Source: Erodium maritimum
Taxonomy: Eukaryota; Streptophyta; Magnoliopsida; Geraniales; Geraniaceae
Assembly (NCBI GenBank): GCA_963921825.1
Contig: OY997592.1
Coordinates: 55,696,336 to 55,760,335, forward strand
Direction of reading: 5' to 3'
DNA: 64,000 nt
Position numbers and translations under genes: made by a program. The notes below the pieces were generated by a model. The model saw nothing but the letters and a program-made list of their open reading frames with translations, was not told the DNA's origin and did not search any database. Shown here one piece after another: positions 3,023 to 46,297 of this stretch (the stretch's first letter is position 1; every line of letters starts with the position of its first letter).

Positions 3023-4780
3023 TGTAAGAACCACTCCCAGTCAACGCCAATCAAATCGGCGAAAAACAGGAAAAATTAAAATTTTGGGACATACACTTAA
3101 ATGAACCTAAATTTGACCCCGAGGGTCATACCGGACATAAGTTGACACCGATATCGATCAAAGTGAGTCTGGGGGACTCAGGGCAACTTTCTGACCAGTT
3201 TGGGAAAGGTTGACTTTTTGCCGGAAATATCAACCGAGCGACGTTTTGGTCCGTTCGAGGTCCGTTTTGGATCCAAAAAGCTTAACCGTCGTGAAAACGG
3301 TCTTAGTTGAGTCGTTTACTTGTAGCCCGTGAAGTTTCGTAATTTCTTGGAAAATGGGCACGTTCGGGGCCCGAGACGGCCAAATTTCGCGAATCTGACT
3401 GAAAAATACCTAGAAGATATTTTCTAAAAGGGGTGGGACCCACTTGCCACTTGTCACACAAGTGGTGGTGTTAGGTAACTTTGAACAAAACAAAAAGGAA
3501 ATGAGTGGTAGTTTGTAAATAAGAAGAGATTGGTTTGGTTTTTAAAACAAATTAAAAGGAAATGAAAGGGGCAGTGTCGACAAATCAAAAAAAAGAAGAG
3601 AAGGAGGAGAGAGAAAGAAGAGAGAAGAAGGAGAAGGAGAGAAGGAAAAGAAAAAGGGTTAGGGATTTGCGATTTCCCAACGATCCAACCGACGGATCGT
3701 CTCAACGGTTGAAGAATCGAGCTCCCATCATCATTCCCTACGGTGAGAACCTAATTGATTTTCGTTTTGGTACGTTTAAAAGTTAGGGTTTGTGTTTAAA
3801 CGGGTTAAATATGGATGAGTCGAGGTGTAGGGTTCGTTGGGAACGTTTTGGAGCGAAAATTGATCGGTTTCCGGTGACCGGAGGCTCGGGGGAGCTCCAG
3901 CCACCGTGGGTGGTGGCTGGCCGGAGCTAGGACAGGCCACCATTGTGCTGAACCGGCCCAAAACCGGTCCAGCCACCCACGGGTCTTGATGGCCGGGTGG
4001 GGCCCACGTTTTTGGGTCTCGGGTTTTCGTGTTCGGGTGGTTTAGGACGATCCCCAAGTCGTTAACCCACACCCGGAACGAATTTTGGATTTAAATTGTA
4101 AAAGTTGGAAATGACGGGTTTAGAAACTTTAAACGCGAATTAAATTGCTCAGAAGTAGGAAATTGATTCCGTCGATTGCATTGGAACCCTTGAACTATTC
4201 TAAGATCGTAGAAACGAAAACGGGAATTTTCGGAGCCCTAGAAGGGCGTTTTCCAATCCCGGGCAGATTCGCCGAGCCGGGCGAATCGGGCCTTTTCGGG
4301 CCCATTATTGACAATGTCGAGTAATTGGGAAGTTTAGGAGTGATCAACATTACCGGGGTTGCGTTTGGGCGTCTAATTCTTTAATTTCAGTTTTTGCCTG
4401 CAAACTTAAAAAGTGTTTTAATTGTGATCTTGTTAGACTGTGCCGGGGACCGCGGAAAGGGAAAGCGAGGCGAGTGATTGTGAGCACGCCGGAGCTTGGT
4501 TGTGAACTTTTGGGAAAGCGTACGAGGTAGGTAAAAGTAGCCGGATCTCGGCCTTGACTAGGGAAAGTTAACAGTAGAAATGCATGTGACACTTGGTAGT
4601 GTCGTAGGATAAGTAAGTTTATCGAACACTAGAAATGCAGGCGGCACTTAGTGTTGTTGTATGATACGTGAACGTATCGAACAATAGAAATGCATGTGAC
4701 ACTTAGGAGTGTCGTAGGATAAGTGAACATATCGAACCTTAGAAATATGTGTGGCTTTTAGTTGTGCCCCGAGGTCGATT

Positions 4781-5340
4781 GAATTGTTTGTGTCTTGGGT
4801 GGCCATGAGTGCCCGTGGGGAGTTGAACCCGTGTTTTACTGTTTGTGTGTCTTGGGTGGCCATGAGTGCCCGTGGGGAGTTGAACCTGTGTGTTACTGTT
4901 GGTGTGTCGTGGGTGGCCATGTGTGCCTTTGGGGTGTTGAACCCGTGTGTTACTGTTGGCGTGTCGTGGGTGGCCATGTGTGCCTTTGGGGTGTTGAACC
5001 CGTGTGTTACTGCTGGTGTGTCGTGGGTGGCCATGTGTTCCTTTGGGGCGTTGAACCCGTGTGTTACTGTTGGCGTGTCGTGGGTGGCCATGTGTGCCTT
5101 TGGGGTGTTGAACTCGTGTGTTACTGTTGGTGTGTCGTGGGTGGCCATGTGTGCCTTTGGGGCGTTGAACCCGTGTGTTACTATTGGTGTGTCGTGAGTG
5201 GCCATGTGTGCCTTTGGGGTGTTAAACCATGTATTACTGTTGGTGTGTCGTGGGTGGCCATGTGTGCCTTTGGGGTGTTGACCCGTGTATTACTGTTGGT
5301 GTGTCGTGGGTGGCCATGAGTGCCTTTGGGGTGTTGAATC
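4781..5340. repeat. 57-bp minisatellite inside the LTR, about 10 units
   Basis: The unit reads GTGTGTCGTGGGTGGCCATG, continuing through TTTGGGG and GTTGAACCCGTGTGTTAC. Because 57 is divisible by 3, all six frames can stay open. That explains the overlapping 150-185-codon frames on both strands here, which I do not call as genes. Confidence 0.85.
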
Positions 5341-6331: not shown

Positions 6332-7067
6332 TCGAGGTTTCACACCTCGAACTGTACGTCAATTAGTTGGGGGAGTCGAGTCAGTAAAAGTCCCGTCGTG
6401 CGTTGGTTGCGCAAGTCGGAAACCGTGTGTAGACCCGTAGTGACAGGAGTCATGTTTGTTGTTGTGTGTATGTTCAGTACCGTGGTTACTGTCATAATGT
6501 TGGTGTGTTGCTGCGTGAAACGTTTTTTAAGCTGTCGCGACTCGACTCAGGAGCGCTCCTGTAGTCGAACGTGACGGTGCTTATATCAAGTGGGTACAAT
6601 GTAGTTCGGGGACGCCTGGACCGGGTTGTAACTACGTGATGTCAAAAATGAGGTTTTATGATGAAAGGGAGAAAGGTTTTAAAGTTGGTTGGCCATGTGG
6701 GCGTGTTTTAAATTGGTCGGCCCTGTGGGCGTGTTTTTAAATTTGTTGGCCCGGTGGGCGTGTTTGATGTTGGTCGGCCTTGTCGGCTTGTGATTGAGGT
6801 TGGGTGACTTGATTTTGTTTGTGAGTCGTGTGCAGTTTTTGTGTTGTTATTGAGTGACGTTGTTCACGTTTGTGTCGAGTCGTGTTGAGATCTCCCTTAC
6901 GTGAGCGAGTAATTGAGGTGTTAATAGCGTGAGCAGTGTGGCGTTTTAGTAACGAGTACGCTAGAGTAGGCGTAGGCGGTGTGAACGCTAGTATATTGAG
7001 CACGTCGTCATTGTATAAGTTCGCAAACTAAGCGTTTGCGTGTATCGGTGTAGAGGATACCGACTAC
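6332..7067 (+). other. Gypsy leader (untranslated)
   Basis: Sequence between the primer site and the gag start, with no supported frame. A degenerate ~35-bp unit (TTGGTCGGCC..GTGGGCGTGTTTT) repeats about four times at 6680-6800. Confidence 0.5.
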
Positions 7068-8198
7068 ATGGCACGTGGCAGGAGAGGACGATCAGTCGGG
7101 GCACCGGAACGGACGTCCACACGTGGCAAGAGAAGACGATCAGCTGGGGCACCGGGACGGATGCCCACCGTCGAACCCGCTGAGTCCACGGAAGCCAAGG
7201 GTACTCCCGTCGGGGAGGACAGGTGGAACGACGCAGGACCATCTGTGGGCACGCCCAGCGTCCCACAGGTCGCAGACCCACCCACTGCGACCGCTCTAGA
7301 TGAGCTGACCCGGACGGTGCAGAGCTTGGTGGCGATCATCGCCCGTAGGGAGTCTGCATCGCCAGCTCCGGAGACAGCAGTCGTTCCAGCGAGGCTCGTT
7401 CAGCCCGAAGGCCATACGGCCCGGACACAGCTGGATTTCTTGAAGCTGGGCATACCTACGTTCGTCGGGGAACCGAACCCCGACATAGCCGAGAGATGGC
7501 TGGAGCAGGTCACTCGGGACCTGGACACGTCAGGCATCGAAGACGGTCACACTAGGGTGTCATTTGCAGCTCATCAGCTGAGGGACAGCGCCTACCACTG
7601 GTGGGGGTGCGTACGGGACAGAGTCGGAGACGACTACAGTATCTTCGAGACGGCCTTTCTGGAGCAGTATTTCCCCGAGTCGGCCAGGGTGGACCGACAT
7701 CAGCAGTTCCTGGAACTGCAACAGGACGGAGCGTCAGTGGTAGAGTATGAGGCCAGATTCACGGCCACGACCCGATTTGCACCAGAAATGGTGGCGATAG
7801 AGCAGAACCGTTGCCGGCGGTTCGAGGCGGGGTTGAGGCCGACGATTCGAGATCGAGTCCTCGCCCTGAGGTTGTGGGTTTACTCAGAACTCGTAGACAC
7901 TGCAGCGATAGTGGAGCAGAGTCTCCGAGATGCAGCGAGGATCAGTGAGGTTCGGCAGCGACCGACCAGTATTGCGGGACCGTCCGAGTCTCGAGATCAG
8001 AGGAGACAGAAGGCCGGGGGGTTCTTTCAGCCACAGGCTCAGCAGGGCGGATCGAGACAGATGGGGTCGGTGGCGTCATTAGGGCCAGTCGCTTCAGAGA
8101 GGGGCCGATATGTTTTACCTACGGGCAGCCAGGCCAGATGCGGCGAGAGTGTCCGATGGGAGGAGGGCCCGCGGCACCACCAGTGGTCAGACAGATAG
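7068..8198 (+). CDS. gag: Gypsy gag polyprotein (fossil element)
   Basis: A 376-codon frame starts ATGGCACGTGGCAGGAG. The N-terminus is basic and low complexity. A Retrotrans_gag domain spans about residues 120-290, with family hallmarks LDFLKLGIPTFVGEPNP, the helix around AYHWWGCVRD, and FLEQYFPES...FLELQQDGASVVEYEARF. It would form the virus-like particle that packages element RNA. A CCHC knuckle follows at 8234-8275. The base composition is GC-rich compared with the AT-rich flanks. It is a fossil, and no pol follows it. Confidence 0.8.
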   Translation: MARGRRGRSVGAPERTSTRGKRRRSAGAPGRMPTVEPAESTEAKGTPVGEDRWNDAGPSVGTPSVPQVADPPTATALDELTRTVQSLVAIIARRESASPAPETAVVPARLVQPEGHTARTQLDFLKLGIPTFVGEPNPDIAERWLEQVTRDLDTSGIEDGHTRVSFAAHQLRDSAYHWWGCVRDRVGDDYSIFETAFLEQYFPESARVDRHQQFLELQQDGASVVEYEARFTATTRFAPEMVAIEQNRCRRFEAGLRPTIRDRVLALRLWVYSELVDTAAIVEQSLRDAARISEVRQRPTSIAGPSESRDQRRQKAGGFFQPQAQQGGSRQMGSVASLGPVASERGRYVLPTGSQARCGESVRWEEGPRHHQWSDR

Positions 8199-9056: not shown

Positions 9057-10640
9057 GATGGAAGAATGCCGATTAAGCATAACACATGCTTCAAAACGGA
9101 TCGCAAGAATACACATTCTCGGTTAGCTTCATGTAGCGCCACAATCTCCGAGTGGTTCGAGGATGTCGCAACCAAAGTTTGCTTCGTAAAGCGCCAGGAA
9201 ATGGCTGTTTCACTGCGGGTGAAAACATATCATGTCTGGGAGCGAGCTTTGTGAGGATCTGATAAATAGCCTGCATCCGCATATCCAACCAGGCCGACGC
9301 TCCCCCTGGACTTAGAATACATAAGTCCCAAATCTCTGGTCCTGCTCAGATAACGAAATACATGCTTGATACCGTTCCAATGTCGTCGAGTGAGTTCTGA
9401 ACTGAACCTGGCAAGTACATTTACTGCGAATGCTATGTCAGGTCGCGTACATTGTGCCAAATACAACAAACCCCCAATAGCATTTAGATATGGTACTTCA
9501 AGACCGACTATCTCTTCATCTGCTTCCTTGAGACGGAATGGATATCTTCTGGGATCTAAAGAACAGACAACCATTGGAGTACTGAGAGGGTGAGAATTAT
9601 TCATACTAAAACGCTTCAAGAGCTTTTCAACATATGCAGATTGATGGATCAAAATGCCATCAGACAGATGCTCGAGCTGCAGGCCGAGACAATGTCTAGT
9701 CCTTCCCAAATCTTTCATTTCGAATTCTCTTTTCAGATAATCTGAAGCTTTGAGGATCTCTTCTAGAGTCCCAATCAGATTTATGTCATCAACGTATACT
9801 GCTATAATAACAAAACCGGAGGTTGTTTTCTTAATGAACACACATGGACAAATAACATCGTTCTTAATGCCTTCTTTGGTAAGGTATTCGCTAAGGCGAT
9901 GATACCACATCCTACCATATTGTTTTAGTCCATACAAAGATTTTTGTAATTTTATTGAACACATATCTCTAGGGATATCTATCATTGCTTCATGCAATCT
10001 CAACCCATCGGGGGAGTTTCATATAGATATCAGTGTTCAAATTATCATGCAGGTAAGCAGTCACAACGTCCATCATGCACATATCAAGTCCTTCAGAGGC
10101 TGATAGGCAGATCAAATATCTGAAAGTGATCATATCCATTACTGGGGAATATGTCTCATCAAAATTGAGTCCTAGTCGTTGAGAGAATCCTTGAGCCACA
10201 AGTCTAGCCTTATATCGGGCGACTTCATTTTTCTCATTTCGTTTCCTTGTAAATACCCACTTGTAACCAACAGGGTTGACATCTTCTGGTGTCTTAGAAA
10301 CGGGCCCAAAACTTGGCGTTTCGCCAATGACGCCAATTCTGCCTGAATTGCTTCTTCCCACATAGGTCAGTCATCCCTGTGACGGCATTCGTCGATGCTT
10401 CGGGGCTCAAAATCAAAATCATTTATGATCTCGTTGGCCACTGCGAACGCAAAGACTTCATCAACAATAATTTTCTCATTTCTTAACTCTTCAGGAGTAT
10501 TAGAGTCTTCTGGTACTTCTGGACCGATTGGTTCTTCTGGAACTGGTTCTGGTAGTTCTTCTAGAACTACCTCTGGTAATGAGGCTTTTTCATTGGCTGG
10601 TTCTTCCGGAACCACTGTTTTCTTATCCCCTCTATTTTTT
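9057..10640 (-). mobile_element. Ty1/copia fossil, pol part (RNase H, reverse transcriptase, hinge)
   Basis: On the minus strand the translation shows Copia RNase H-type sequence (SEIVALHEANRECVFLRS, near 9150), a reverse transcriptase segment at 9230-10003 with KSLYGLKQYGRMWYHRL and the catalytic YVDD box, and the family sequence RPDIAFAVNVLARFSS. Upstream is the start of the RT domain (10000-10361: YKWVFTRKRNEKN...YKARLVAQGFSQR), then a Glu/Pro-rich hinge (10367-10615). It is the continuation of the fossil at 2600-3022. It is broken in several places and abuts a LINE at about 10641. Confidence 0.8.
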
Positions 10641-13590
10641 TAATTAGCAAAAAAAAACGATTTTATTAAGGTGCAAAAGGGAGAGGTATAGAAGAGAATA
10701 AGAAAAGCAGAAACTAAGTCCCCAACGGGCAGCCAAAACAATAGGAGGGGGAAGCCTACCATCGGAGAGGATCTAAGCTGTCGGGAGAAGGAGATTTGGA
10801 GCTAAGCAGGGAGAAGCAATAGAGCTTGATCCGGAGCACCACCAGGTCCGGCGGCTCCGAGATAGTGGAGAAAATAGTAGCATTACGGGACAGCAAGATA
10901 AACCAGAAACTGATGAACAAAATCTTCTTCCAAAACAAGCCGGCCATTCCACGGGGGTCAAGGCCTTGCCACTGGGAGATAAGATCGATCGGAGAAGAGG
11001 GAAGACATTCAGAGAGATTCCACCAGTTTAAAATAGCGTACCAAATGGAGGCCGATCTAGGGAAAATCAGTAAGAGGTGAGACGCGTCTTCAAAGTTGTA
11101 TTTGCAAAAGCAGCACCAAGACTCCGAGAGAGAGATGGGCACACCACGATCTTCAAGAAAGGATTCAGAGGGATCGCATTCAAAGCAACCAACCAAATAG
11201 AGTGATTTTTTTAGGGAGTTTGGATCTCCAAAGGATCGAGCACCAATGAGGATTATGCACATTTAGGTTTTTCCTGATCTCATAATACACCAGCTTGACA
11301 GAAAACCCATTAGAATTATGGACCCATCTTACTGAATCTGGGGCAGCCGAAGGTTTGAACAAAGCAAGATGTTGCTGGAGGAGTTCGGAAAGATCAGTTT
11401 CGAAGACAAACAACCCGCGTCTAAAGATAAGGACCCAATAGTTTTCGGACCAGTAATCACAAACTCGCGCATTTTTATCAGACGCAAGCGAGAAAAGCCG
11501 GGGGTAGAGAGAGGCAAATGGTTCTGAGCCTGCCCAGCAGTCGTTCTAGAAAGAAATCTTAGAACCAGAACCGAGCTCCCATCTGATACCATCGGGACCA
11601 AATAGGCTTGCAATCCTGGAGTCCTTAAAAAGACTGAGGATGTTTGAGATGTTTGAGGAACATCTAGATGTAGATAGAGCCGACAAATCCCAGGCATGGT
11701 CGGGCCAATTGTAAATTGCACACAAAACTCTTTTCCAAAGAGGATCGTCCTCAACTGCGAATCTCCAGAGCCACTTAGATAATAGAGATAAATTGAAGTC
11801 ACCAAAGTTACGAATTGTAATACCTCCATGAAATTTCGGTTTTTGAACATGGTTCCAGTTGACTTTGGCAAAGGTTTTGCGGTCGGGTTTGGTTCCCTAT
11901 AAGAAAGACCGCTCAATAGCCTCAAGCTTCTTTGTTATCTTGGTGGGAGCCTTGAAGAGGGACATACGGAAGACGGGGATAGAGCTCAAGTTGGAGCAAA
12001 TTAAAGTGTGTCTACCACCAAAAGAGAGATGCTTGGTTTGCCATAGCTCAGTAGCCTTCTGAAACTTCGCGACCACTGGACCCCAAGTCGCAGCCAGCCT
12101 ATCATTGGCACCCAAGGCAAACCCGAGATACGTGAAGGGGAGTGGCATAAAGGAGCAACCGAGAGTAGAGGCTAAGGAGTTGGCTTCACCCGGTTCACCA
12201 TTTAATAGAGTCAAGTGTGACTTTGAGAAGTTTATCTCTAAACCTGAGGCCAGGTGAAAGGCTGCTAACAGAGCCTTAATGTTGGTGATAACCTGGTGAT
12301 CGGCTTCAAGTAAGAGCAATGTGTGATCAGCGTATTGCAGATGAGTGATGGAGGAATGGAAATTTGGGAGAGAGACGCATTTGATGACACCTAACGCTTC
12401 AGTTTCAACCAATAAAAGATGCAAGCCTTCAGCAGCAAGCAAGAAGAGGAAGGGCGAGATAGAACACCCTTGTCTCACTCCACAAGAGGAGGTGAATTCG
12501 TTCGAGGGAGAGCCGTGATGAGGACCAAGGCGTGGGCTTTAAGACATGAACTCATCCAATTCCTCCATGTAGCCCCGAAGCCCATACGAGTGAGAACCCT
12601 TTGAAGATAGTACCAATTCAACCTGTCAAATGCTTTCGCGAAATCAAGTTTTAACAAGATCAACTTGAGCTTTCTGGATTTTGTAAACCAAATAATTTCG
12701 CCGACAATTAAGACTGAGTCCACAAGCTGCCTTCCCTTGGCAAAAGCCATCTGAAAATCACTGATCAAGCTGGGTACAAGTGTTTTGATTCTTGAAGCAA
12801 GCAACTTAGAAAGGATCTTATAGGGTGCCGAGAGGAGGCTAATAGGGTGGAAATGGCTGGTGAGGGGATCTTTTTAACAGAGTAATGAAGGAGGAGCTGA
12901 AACCCTTGCCAATCTTACCAGACCGATGAAATTCATCGAAGAAACTCAAAACATTGAGCCTAATGATGTGCTAGGCTTTTTGAAAGAACTTGAGCGAGAA
13001 ACCGTCAGGCCTCTGAGCTTTATCCCCATTTAAACTGAATATACAATCAACAATGTCTTCTTCCACAAAAGGAGCCTCGATATTCCTAGCTTCCTCGGCT
13101 GAGATGGCTTTGAAGGGGAGGTGTGGAAGGCTCAGGTGTTTATAGAGTCTGCCAGGGACTTGATCCGATCAGGGTCAAAGACTGATTCTCCCTCATGAGA
13201 GATGGAGCTAATGTTGTTTAAGAAACTCCTGCGACTAGCGAAAGCTTGGAAGTGTTTGGAGTTCATGTCACCTGAGGATAACCATAGGGCTTTGGACTTT
13301 TGACGCCATAACTTAGTGTGAAGCTTGATCAGACTGATAAGTTTGGCTTGGAGATTGGAACGACTTGCGATTTTTAGAGGTGTAAGCTGCCTGGAAGACA
13401 CCATCGCATCCAAGTCGGCAATTTCAAGAGCGGTCTCTTTGATATTGAAGTCCACGTTCCCAAAGACCAAGAGGTTCCACTGAATCAAGTCACTCCTTAG
13501 CATTCTGAATTTACTCCAAAGAATGTGGTGCGTATCTCCTTGAGGTTTGTAGGATTGCCAAAGCAGACTGACGTTGGGGAGGAAGGATAT
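10641..13590 (-). mobile_element. 5'-truncated L1-type LINE
   Basis: Read on the minus strand, it begins inside the endonuclease-RT linker (13132-13503, FQAFASRRSFLNNISSI). It then shows RT motif A (KLDFAKAFDRLNWYYL, 12475-12804) and the motif RQGCSISPFLFLLAAEGL (11897-12478). The catalytic box reads YADH where YADD is expected, so the enzyme would be inactive. A zf-RVT region with FCKYNFEDASHLLL lies at 10756-11262. The tail reads GCTAATTAAAAAAATAG on the minus strand. Coding is split over several frames with stops between them. No endonuclease remains. I found no TSD because the right edge is a truncation. Confidence 0.85.
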
Positions 13591-27432: not shown

Positions 27433-27828
27433 ATATGTTAGAAAGTGAAAATATCTCAGTTATATATTAATCGAACATCCTTATTGGATTGGGACCTCAT
27501 GTCCATCGAATTTACCTTTGGGCCCTTGTGTCCATCGAATTGAAGGCATCGTGAAAGATGTTCTGCTCATTACCTCAAAGCAGTCAGATATTCCTATGTA
27601 TGTTCTTACGTTTTTGTTTTGGTTAATTTCAGAAGCGTTGGAACCCTAATCAACATACTTGTTGTTACGTTTTTATTTTGAATAATTTCAGAACAAACGT
27701 ATGCACCGGATACAACGATTTTGGGTGAATTTACGCTAATCAAGCCAATTTGGGATTTATTTGTTTATGGAAAGCGTCGCTTGAAAACACCAATAAAACG
27801 TCGCCGACTATACTTGCTCTTAACCGCC

Positions 27829-28004
27829 ATGGAAAACAAGGAACGAGGAGAGATGGAAGAGAAGAATTTTACCGAGGACCTCATCACCGACATCATTAGG
27901 CGAGTGTCGACCAAACACCTCACGCGCTTCACGTGCGTCTCCAAATCATGGCGTTCCTTGATCCGCACCGACCCTTATTTCTTTGGCCTCTATAAACAGA
28001 CTCC
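27829..28004 (+). CDS. F-box exon, partial gene
   Basis: The frame from ATG 27829 reads MENKERGEMEEKNF then an F-box (residues about 13-50: FTEDLITDIIRRVST, LTRFTCVSKSWRSLIRTDP). F-box proteins are the substrate-recognition part of SCF ubiquitin ligases. The frame is also open upstream to 27721, but the Met at 27829 directly precedes the conserved part. Coding sequence probably stops at a good donor, ACTCC|GTATGTATC. The C-terminal kelch or FBA part of a ~380-residue F-box protein is not found before the LINE at 28226. It is either a truncated gene or a pseudogene, and it is related to the fragment at 25498. Confidence 0.6.
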
Positions 28005-28225
28005 GTATGTATCTAAGTTATCACGTTTTTGTATATTTATAGAAATTGTCGCTTAAAAACGCTTGTAAAACCCTAACCAATATAGCAGATTCCTATATAT
28101 ACTTGTTGTTGTTACATTTTTGTTTTGAATAATTTCAGAACAATGTGTGCAATGTCTTTTTTGTTGTCAATAATTTCATAACAAAGTATGCAATTTGTGG
28201 GGTATCATTCTGATACCTTGGGCTG

Positions 28226-29452: not shown

Positions 29453-30925
29453 GGGAAAATTTCAGTATAATACCCTGGCAAATTTTTTTTGCACTTTCAT
29501 ACCTAAACCAAACATTTATTTTCACTTTAGTACCCAACCGTTAACTTTATGTTAGTTTGAATGGAAAAAGTTAAAAAGACCATAATACCCCTAACTATTA
29601 CTCAAATTTTCAAACTCATGCCATTGAATTCAAACTTGAAAATAAGTGAAATGACAATAATACCCTCCATTGTTAGGGTATTAAAATGAAAATTTCACTA
29701 TTTTTAAAATAAAATCAGTTTTTTTTATATATAAATTCAGTTTTTATTTATGAAAGTTATTTTTATTTTTAAAAAAATCAGATTTTAATTTAAAAAATAC
29801 ATTAAAATCAGATTTTATTTTTAATAATACATAAAAATCAGTTTTTTAAAATACATAAAAATCAGTTATTTTTTGTTATTCAGTTTAATTTTTCAAAAAT
29901 TCAGATTTTAATTTAAAAATACATAAAAACCATATTTTAAAAAAAATACATAAAAATCATTTTTTTAATTTAATTAATAATTTATTATATTTGTTTTTTT
30001 TATTTTCCTTTTGCTGGCACGGCCTCGAACCAGATTTGCTCACTTCATTTCTTCTTCACTCCCGTCCGATCCGACTGGAGCTGCGGTGATTTCAGAGGCG
30101 TGGTCCGATGTTGTGCCTCGCTAGAGTTGAAGGGATATGGTCCGCGGACTCGGTTTGACGGCGGGGCTCTAGGAGGGTCTTCTCGTCTTTTCGTCCCGCC
30201 GCCACCATGGGAAACTCTCCTGATGCTGGCATGGACGCAGTCAAGAGGCGACTCATGTTCGAGGACGAGTCTGTTCCTAATCCTTCTAAATCTCTTTAGC
30301 AATCGTGTCAGTTTTTTTCGATTTTGTGCTCTGCTGAATCGATTTTGTGCTATGCAGATATGGATTTGTAAAAAAAACATCGAAAAAAGAAAAAGGTAAA
30401 ACAAAAAAATGCTACGAGATAGAAAAATTATTCTGGGTAGAAAAATGAAAATAAACAATATAATTAAATTACAAAAAACTGATTTTATGTATTGTTTTTT
30501 TTAAAACTGATTTTTATGTATTTTTGAAAATAAAAATAATTTTCATAAATAAAAACAGAATTTTTGAAAATAAAAATAATTTTCATAAATGAAAACTGAA
30601 TTTATAAAAAATAAATTGAATTTTTGAAAAATAAAAATAATTTTCGAAATTTTCGTTTTAATATCCTAACAGTGGAGGTTATTACTGTCATTTCACTTAT
30701 TTTTAAGGTATGAGTTCAATGACATGAGTTTGAAAATTTGAGTAATAGTTAGGAGTATTATGGTCTTTTTAACTTTTTCCATCCAAACTAACAGAAAGTT
30801 AACGGTTGGGTACCAAAGTGAAAATAAATGTTTGGTTTAGGTATGAAAGTGCAAAAAAAAAATTTCCAGGGTATTATATTGAAATTAAATGTTTGGCAAG
30901 GTATTATACTGGAATTTTCTTTTTT
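29453..30925. mobile_element. Mutator-like fold-back element carrying host DNA (Pack-MULE-like)
   Basis: The left arm, from GGGAAAATTTCAGTATAATACCC through about 29700, returns in reverse at about 30640-30920 (GGTATTATACTGGAATTTTC). The arms share long phrases such as TTGCACTTTCATACCTAAACC and ACCGTTAACTTTCTGTTAGTTTG with small differences. Between them lie AT-rich sequence and a GC-richer island at about 30000-30310 that holds the start of an IDI-like coding sequence. No transposase is present. I could not find a 9-bp TSD, so the MULE label rests on the long arms and the captured segment. Confidence 0.6.
30207..30299 (+). pseudogene. Captured fragment of isopentenyl-diphosphate isomerase (IDI)
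   Basis: After GCCACCATGG the translation reads MGNS then PDAGMDAVKRRLMFEDE. This is the conserved start of the cytosolic part of plant IDI, which isomerises IPP and DMAPP in isoprenoid synthesis. After residue 21 the similarity stops and a TAG closes a 30-residue frame. The point of divergence fits an exon end of the parent gene, but I cannot check that. No Nudix domain is present, so it cannot be an enzyme. It is intact as a very short frame in a good start context. Confidence 0.6.
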
Positions 30926-31065: not shown

Positions 31066-31480
31066 GGGTAAACTACAAATATCTAACCCAAACTTGTAGC
31101 GTTTAACTGATACCTATTCTAAATTGTTTTTTAACTGATACCTACTCAGATGTTTAGTTATATAACAAATAGCCCAAGCTGTCAGCTAAAATGACAAAAA
31201 TGCCCTCAAATTTTTTTTTAATATTTTTTTAAAATAAAACTGAAGTGATTTTTTTAAATTAAACTAAAGTGAATTAATAAGTGCATATATATACCTAAAA
31301 AGTGATTTTTTTTAAAAAAATAATTGTTGAAGTTTAGTTGAGGGTATTTTCGTCCTTTTAGCTGGCGGCTTGGGCTATTTGTTATATAACTAAACATCTG
31401 AGTAGGTATTAGTTAAAAAAACTTTAGGGTAGGTATCAGTTAAACGCTACAAGTTTGGGGTAGGTATTTTTAATTTACCC
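31066..31480. mobile_element. MULE-type MITE, 415 bp, TSD TTATTGAAA
   Basis: Inverted arms of about 150 bp start GGGTAAACTACAAATATCTA and end in the complement ...TTTACCC. A perfect 9-bp TSD, TTATTGAAA, lies at 31057-31065 and 31481-31489. A 9-bp TSD plus long arms indicates a non-autonomous Mutator-like element. Confidence 0.85.
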
Positions 31481-45064: not shown

Positions 45065-46297
45065 TCAGCAACCCTCGTCGTGTTGCAGCTTAGCCATCTT
45101 CTTCCCACTGACGAACACGAAATCGAGGTTGTACATAACGGGCACTAAACCCACACAACACAAGAAGACGAGAACGGGCCCAAAAATCCAGAGCAGCAAC
45201 GGCATTGCGGCGTGGAAGAGGCGGTTCCCTAGCGTGTTGAGCAAGAAACCTCTTTCGAGGAGCTCGGAGACGTAGTCCGGCGTGACGACGCATACCGGGT
45301 CGGTGGGGTCTTGCGGCGAGTTGATGAGGAAGTTGACCTGGTTGATGAACCTGATGGAGAGGGAGTGGCAGAAGAAGGACAAGAGGAACAAGGTCAGGAG
45401 CGTCACGTATTTGACGGACAACATGAACTCCCCATGGGCCCCCAAAACGGAGTCGTTTAGCGGCTTCTTGATGCTGTAGGTACTGCTGATCACCGCCGCC
45501 AGCCCGCAGCAGAGGAGGATCGATGTCGTCGCCATTAAGGTTGATCCCATGATTGTGTTCCGAAGAGTTTGGACTGCCAGGATGTTCTTCTTCTCGTTGT
45601 CCTATATATATATATATGTATGTATACACAATTAAAAACAAATTAATTGTGGTATTTTAATTGGAAAACCATGGATTCTAACTTTTTTTAAGGGTTGTTT
45701 TAACAATCTTAACTGGTTTTGACGTTTTTTTGCACTTCTCAAATATGACTTTTTTATTTTTTGCACGGGCTAACATTTCTCGCATGAATAAACGCTGTCG
45801 TTAGTTTTGGATAAGAAAATCCTAAAATTCCCTCAACAAAAAATGTTAGTCCGTGCAAAAAATGGAAAGGTCATGATTGAAAAGTGCAAAAAAAAAATCA
45901 AGCTCAATCTCCGGTTATTGACTTTTGCTGAGGGTATTTTAGGTTTTTTCCATCTAAAACTAACGGCAACATTCATTCAGGCGGAAGTGTAGTCTATACA
46001 AAAAATAGACATACCATAGTTGAGAGATACAAAAAAAAAGAATCACTAAAACAAAGTTCAAACAGGTTAAGACCAATAATTCCCCCTATTTTAATTATAA
46101 TAATTGATTTGGATAGAAATGGTAGATACCTTCATGATGGAAGAGACCCAAGAACGGCGGCCCCTAACATTGGTGCCGATGATGGTGGAGAGGGGCTGAG
46201 TCCGGACCTTGTGCCACAAGAACAAATGGTAGCTAACCATTACCATAAACCCTAGAGGCACCAACAACACATCCAAATAGCTCTGCCTCCAACCCAT
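45065..46297 (-). CDS. DUF599 family membrane protein, two exons, 234 aa
   Basis: Exon 1 is 46297-46130 and exon 2 is 45601-45065. The junction AAG|GTATCT to ATATAG|GAC is in phase. The start MGWRQSYLDVLLVPLG matches the family start. A Met 13 codons upstream (46336) would add a poly-Lys stretch but lies at the expected transcription start, so I reject it. Four membrane segments fall at about 8-27, 74-96, 121-139 and 188-211. Family blocks are HKVRTQPLSTIIGTN, KKNILAVQTLRNTIMGSTLM, FFCHSLSIRFINQVNFLIN and RGFLLNTLGNRLF. The protein ends in a Cys. Function is unknown in the family, and a membrane location is inferred. The frame is intact. Its single intron holds a fold-back element. Confidence 0.92.
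45691..46087. mobile_element. Inverted-repeat MITE inside the DUF599 intron
   Basis: Arms of about 150-190 bp: the left arm has AGGGTTGTTTTAACAATCTT, ATTTTTTGCACGGGC and GCATGAATAAACGCTGTCG. The right arm repeats these in reverse with more divergence (ACGGCAACATTCATTCAGGC). Both meet in CCTAAAATWCCCTCARCAAAA. It takes up about three quarters of the 528-bp intron (45602-46129). No TSD is clear. It is likely of the same Mutator-like type as those at 31-32 kb. Confidence 0.7.

Follow-up and report, generated by a model that had tools for sequence, protein, structure and literature searches.

A probable Pack-MULE-like element in Erodium maritimum carrying a genomic fragment of an isopentenyl-diphosphate isomerase gene

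Mutator-like elements (MULEs) generate target-site duplications of 9-11 bp, have terminal inverted repeats (TIRs) of typically 100-500 bp, and carry captured sequences that may regulate the parental genes, according to one published account (PMC3310237). In another, MULEs are described as capturing GC-rich parental sequence, also from two parents, and a repair or conversion model is presented for how such sequence is acquired (PMC4858842). The available text of the paper retrieved as naming both isopentenyl diphosphate isomerase (IDI) and Pack-MULEs describes no capture of IDI, and a literature search with an IDI peptide returned nothing.

We analyzed a 64,000-nucleotide stretch of Erodium maritimum DNA (hereafter the window), corresponding to positions 55696336-55760335 of contig C5 in a 763-Mb genome of 40 contigs. 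With a probability of roughly 0.86, we consider that it contains a Pack-MULE-like, non-autonomous member of a large Mutator-like family, which carries a genomic IDI fragment derived from the gene on contig C6. Like the Pack-MULEs of these accounts, the element has long terminal inverted repeats, and its family makes 9-bp target-site duplications. It also holds GC-rich sequence, intron included, that was copied from the genomic DNA of a non-transposon gene; its island is composite, and no recognizable transposase lies inside. The difference is that the window copy lacks a recognizable target-site duplication and that a single IDI-bearing copy was found. Another relevant group is the MULEs with tandem TIRs (PMC3310237), since several members of the family studied here bear an extra unit at the arm end; that unit, however, is about 35 bp long rather than a whole TIR, and is one-sided in the window element. 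The parts of the element are as follows.

29453..29893, + strand: left terminal inverted arm, with the GGGAAAATTTCAG terminus, a conserved outer part of ~240 nt and an AT-rich inner part, from the arm alignment
29894..30007, no strand: AT-rich spacer between left arm and island, from sequence and GC profile
30008..30087, + strand: island stretch matching only itself in a genome search with 29990-30320
30088..30176, + strand: island stretch shared with positions 3926-4009 of locus L012 (83% over 87 columns)
30174..30268, + strand: final 95 nt of coding exon 1, captured from the C6 IDI gene (L008), as given by the DNA alignment
30269..30344, + strand: 76 nt from the start of IDI intron 1, likewise captured, beginning at the 5´ splice site GA/GTCTG
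30345..30453, no strand: junction and AT-rich stretch, in which a cryptic 3´ splice site may end at 30357
30454..30925, - strand: right terminal inverted arm; an additional outer end unit lies at ~30887-30925

Elsewhere in the window there are a tandem-repeat-like region with several open frames on both strands (4648-5319), a retrotransposon gag fragment (7032-8198), RVT_2 (9230-10018) and RVT_1 (12475-12873) fragments, an F-box ORF (27682-28056) and a DUF599 ORF (45065-45601).

The sequence-only reading had proposed long inverted arms around a GC-rich island, and both are present. Positions 29458-29893 pair with 30886-30454 (85% over 429 columns, and 83% over 450 in a second alignment). The outer arms are 94% complementary over 160 nt, with 94.1% identity over 238 ungapped columns, or 92.5% over 241 when gaps are counted. 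The island reaches a maximum of 0.61 GC per 100 nt, and GC content is 0.43 at 30000-30499 versus 0.17 in the neighboring 500 nt (29500-29999). The interior between the arms spans ~560 nt. No transposase was found inside the element, whose two interior frames of at least 120 aa had no Pfam match at E 0.1. The extra outer end unit is confined to the right arm in the window element, is present in several other family members, and lies at a terminus that, by reading, looks decayed; the left terminus was placed by comparison with members of the arm family.

Other copies with matching arms, which the sequence-only reading had proposed to look for, do exist. A genome search with the left arm (29453-29660) gave 3,237 first-look candidates, and the best 40 of these yielded 46 matches, namely the arm itself, 40 nearly full-length at 93-96% and 5 short; scoring was limited to the best candidates, so this number does not give the count of copies. 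Among the listed matches are four close inverted arm pairs, three of which have perfect 9-bp target-site duplications (TAAAAAATA, TAATGTATA and TTCTTTTTT); the fourth has no duplication at its script-defined ends and, by eye, eight of nine bases when the right end is moved by one base. Two of the four pairs (L034 on C2 and L035 on C5) enclose GC-rich islands, with maxima of 0.63 and 0.66 GC per 100 nt; the remaining two pairs have no such island. Two observations count against our main reading or against the mobility of this exact composite: for the arm copies at L010, L012 and L024 the examined span includes no inverted partner, and no second IDI-bearing copy appeared in the genome search with 29990-30320.

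Other elements of related appearance occur nearby. A short element at window positions 31066-31480, roughly 140 bp away from the main one, is a MULE-type MITE; its termini read GGGTAAACTACAAAT, and its 9-bp duplication, TTATTGAAA, is perfect by reading (one mismatch was scored by the script, which had set the left end off by one base). At ~C5:55824424-55825686, L030 is another Pack-MULE-like element; its GGGTAAATTACATC arms share 97% identity over 115 nt, and it has a perfect TTTGTTTTT duplication and a GC-rich island. Three nearby elements with GGGTAAA termini show 9-bp duplications: L030 (perfect), one with a single mismatch, and the element at 31066-31480.

For the window element, no 7-12 bp duplication with at most one mismatch was found. 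At its outer ends the best 9- and 10-mers carry three mismatches and thus give no 9-11 bp duplication, and in a control with random positions three mismatches were reached by 9-mers in 275 and by 10-mers in 176 of 400 trials. The inner right end gives 9- and 10-mer pairs with two mismatches, a signal that is weak at best since chance reaches it in 62 and 22 of 400 cases, respectively. All nine bases preceding the left GGG are A. The term Pack-MULE-like is therefore kept, as the strict name would not fit a copy with no recognizable duplication of its own, while the other parts of that earlier designation hold: the inverted repeats belong to a Mutator-like family in which 3/4 related pairs have 9-bp duplications, and the interior carries a fragment of a non-transposon host gene whose parent is identified (C6 IDI).

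The missing duplication bears on whether the structure arose by one transposition at all, or instead through two separate insertions or the recombination of two family members. The latter reading would account for outer ends with no duplication, for arms that are unlike in the outer end unit, and for the 10-mer pair at the inner right end; partnerless single arms do occur in the examined DNA, and each of the eight arms in the four relatives resembles the left arm more closely (94.5-96.3%) than does the right arm of the window element (94.1%). However, L034 is equally asymmetric in its end unit and has a perfect 9-bp duplication, the arms of the window element match from outside inward over ~430 nt, a stretch that takes in their AT-rich inner part, and loss of the duplication is easily explained by a right terminus that looks decayed. 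On balance, we regard an origin by recombination or two insertions as unlikely, and continue with a single transposed element.

The GC-rich island had been said to carry the first exon of an IDI gene. In the genome search with 29990-30320, seven matches were obtained: the window itself, two with the upstream part only, and four with the IDI part, at 94, 84, 82 and 84% identity over 89 to 171 columns (best E 2.4e-54). The four belong to the IDI loci of the host genome, each with downstream isopentenyl-diphosphate isomerase exons, which were located with a plant IDI protein probe. The claim that the island aligns to the host's own IDI genes, and that the peptide at the ATG is IDI-like, is thus supported at the DNA level. 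Lack of a significant DNA match to IDI had been named as what would refute it and reduce the peptide similarity to chance; the 30-residue frame is indeed short and, searched alone, the peptide has no match in Pfam, NCBIfam or PDB, but DNA matches of this length and significance to all four host IDI loci, the best of them including intron, leave chance with practically no probability, and it was rejected. Searches with a degenerate IDI pattern and arm patterns in bacterial/archaeal and viral collections, which are not meant for plant genomes, returned nothing.

The C6 gene is the parent. Island positions 30174-30344 differ from it at 10 of 168 aligned bases and by a 3-nt insertion, and from the other three loci at 22/148 (the C2 gene, L009), 42/161 and 57/165. 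At the 12 aligned sites where the C6 and C2 genes differ, the last two of which sit in poorly aligned intron, the element agrees with C6 at 11 and with neither at one. The joined exons of the C6 gene score 191.5 bits for the TIGR02150 equivalog (cut-off 105.8), and exon 2 begins GTGCATTTTAG after CAG.

The captured piece extends from the closing part of the transit-peptide region, through the long frame's second methionine and RRLMFEDE, to the donor and the start of intron 1. What was called the first exon is therefore exon 1 sequence, of which only the last 95 nt of the coding part are present, and the description of the island as IDI applies to 30174-30344, its 5´ half being something else. 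Similarity was expected to end at an exon border and does not do so, as the match continues through the donor into 76 nt of intron 1, which is what copying of genomic DNA would predict; an exon-only capture was rejected on this ground, and the captured piece is genomic DNA. The same feature decides against a processed, reverse-transcribed IDI pseudogene between two repeats. The presence of a single exon would fit such a pseudogene, which should have no intron; with a 5´ splice site and intron 1 sequence in the copied piece, and a match that stops within the intron, the evidence argues for DNA copying, and the processed pseudogene was rejected as exceedingly improbable. By reading, CGATTTTGTGCT(C/A)TG occurs twice at the right capture junction (window 30318-30357) and once in the parent, a duplication possibly left by template slippage during copying.

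The remainder of the island points to a composite make-up. L012 (C5:55615925) has a similar left arm, with no outer right arm in the span examined, and no IDI match; the recurrence there of 30088-30176 indicates that the island is composite. A 50-nt core of the same stretch recurs at positions 3667-3716 of L013, whose arms are of another family. Pieces of 30088-30176 are thus found in elements with two kinds of arms, as if this sequence might have been captured or exchanged more than once.

The ATG of the captured piece, at 30207, opens MGNSPDAGMDAVKRRLMFEDESVPNPSKSL followed by a stop codon, in the surrounding sequence GCCACCATGG. This frame and those upstream are listed below.

30207..30299, + strand: 30-codon frame, MGNSPDAGMDAVKRRLMFEDE plus SVPNPSKSL, the last nine residues coming from the intron
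30108..30158, + strand: upstream ORF MLCLARVEGIWSADSV (ending in a stop codon), 5´ of the ATG at 30207, from ORF reading
30137..30172, + strand: upstream ORF MVRGLGLTAGL (ending in a stop codon), 5´ of the ATG at 30207, from ORF reading

The frame of 30 residues reported as intact is open for its full 30 codons, and its last nine are intron 1 read in frame, given that the match includes the intron. Could it nevertheless be a young functional gene or regulator, through a translated peptide or through small RNAs against IDI? Besides the open frame, a candidate acceptor at 30357 would give a spliced frame of 50 residues, and six exon-1 21-mers match both the C6 and the C2 gene perfectly. Against this, the two upstream ORFs precede the ATG, and the captured exon stops before the NUDIX domain, which occupies residues 51-187 of the C6 IDI product. 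Five of the seven exon differences from the parent are nonsynonymous, a small number set against the 77% expected in the absence of constraint; at six of the seven, the C2 gene has the C6 state, which by reading of the alignment places the change on the element's side. The captured frame thus looks to be under neutral-looking substitution, with no selection visible in the comparison, and a functional role appears very unlikely from the sequence.

The potential for small RNAs is nonetheless uneven among the IDI genes. Perfect matches to both C6 and C2 that lie in exon 1 only amount to the six 21-mers and one 24-mer, and those touching the intron comprise 36 21-mers and 30 24-mers for C6, none for C2, and six 21-mers and three 24-mers for each of two C1 genes. 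Folding prediction for a full-length transcript gives a long hairpin (-587 kcal/mol, a value obtained without a shuffled control), a point in favor of a regulator; yet this hairpin would leave the IDI piece between the paired arms. Production of small RNAs against IDI would require transcription in both directions and is a minor possibility. The fuller version, in which inward promoters in the arms drive bidirectional transcription of the island and yield 21-24-nt RNAs that tune the C6 paralog, or the spliced 50-residue peptide, has a slimmer chance still. If it were true, one copy of a four-locus IDI family would be tuned by an element with perfect matches to exon 1 and intron 1. Most likely, the element has no effect on IDI.

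We suggest that the Pack-MULE-like element formed in the following way. An arm-bearing ancestor, probably with the unrelated GC-rich stretch already inside (that stretch would have been captured before IDI), would have copied ~170 bp of genomic DNA from the C6 IDI gene, taking the end of exon 1, the 5´ splice site and the start of intron 1. Ectopic gap repair between the arms is the likely route of copying, and mobilization would have depended on a transposase encoded elsewhere. The copy would then have decayed, with no selection visible on the captured frame. Divergence between the arms (5.9%) and between capture and parent (6.0%) is similar, consistent with similar ages. Overall, this looks like an ordinary, ageing gene capture that is in decay, and nothing points to a working product; capture of this kind is well known, and nothing suggests a new mechanism.

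The locus adds one well-resolved capture, with an identified parent gene and both ends of the copied piece defined. With a large arm family, and other GC-rich islands in two of four members, this genome is suited to studying how frequently the starts of genes are captured.
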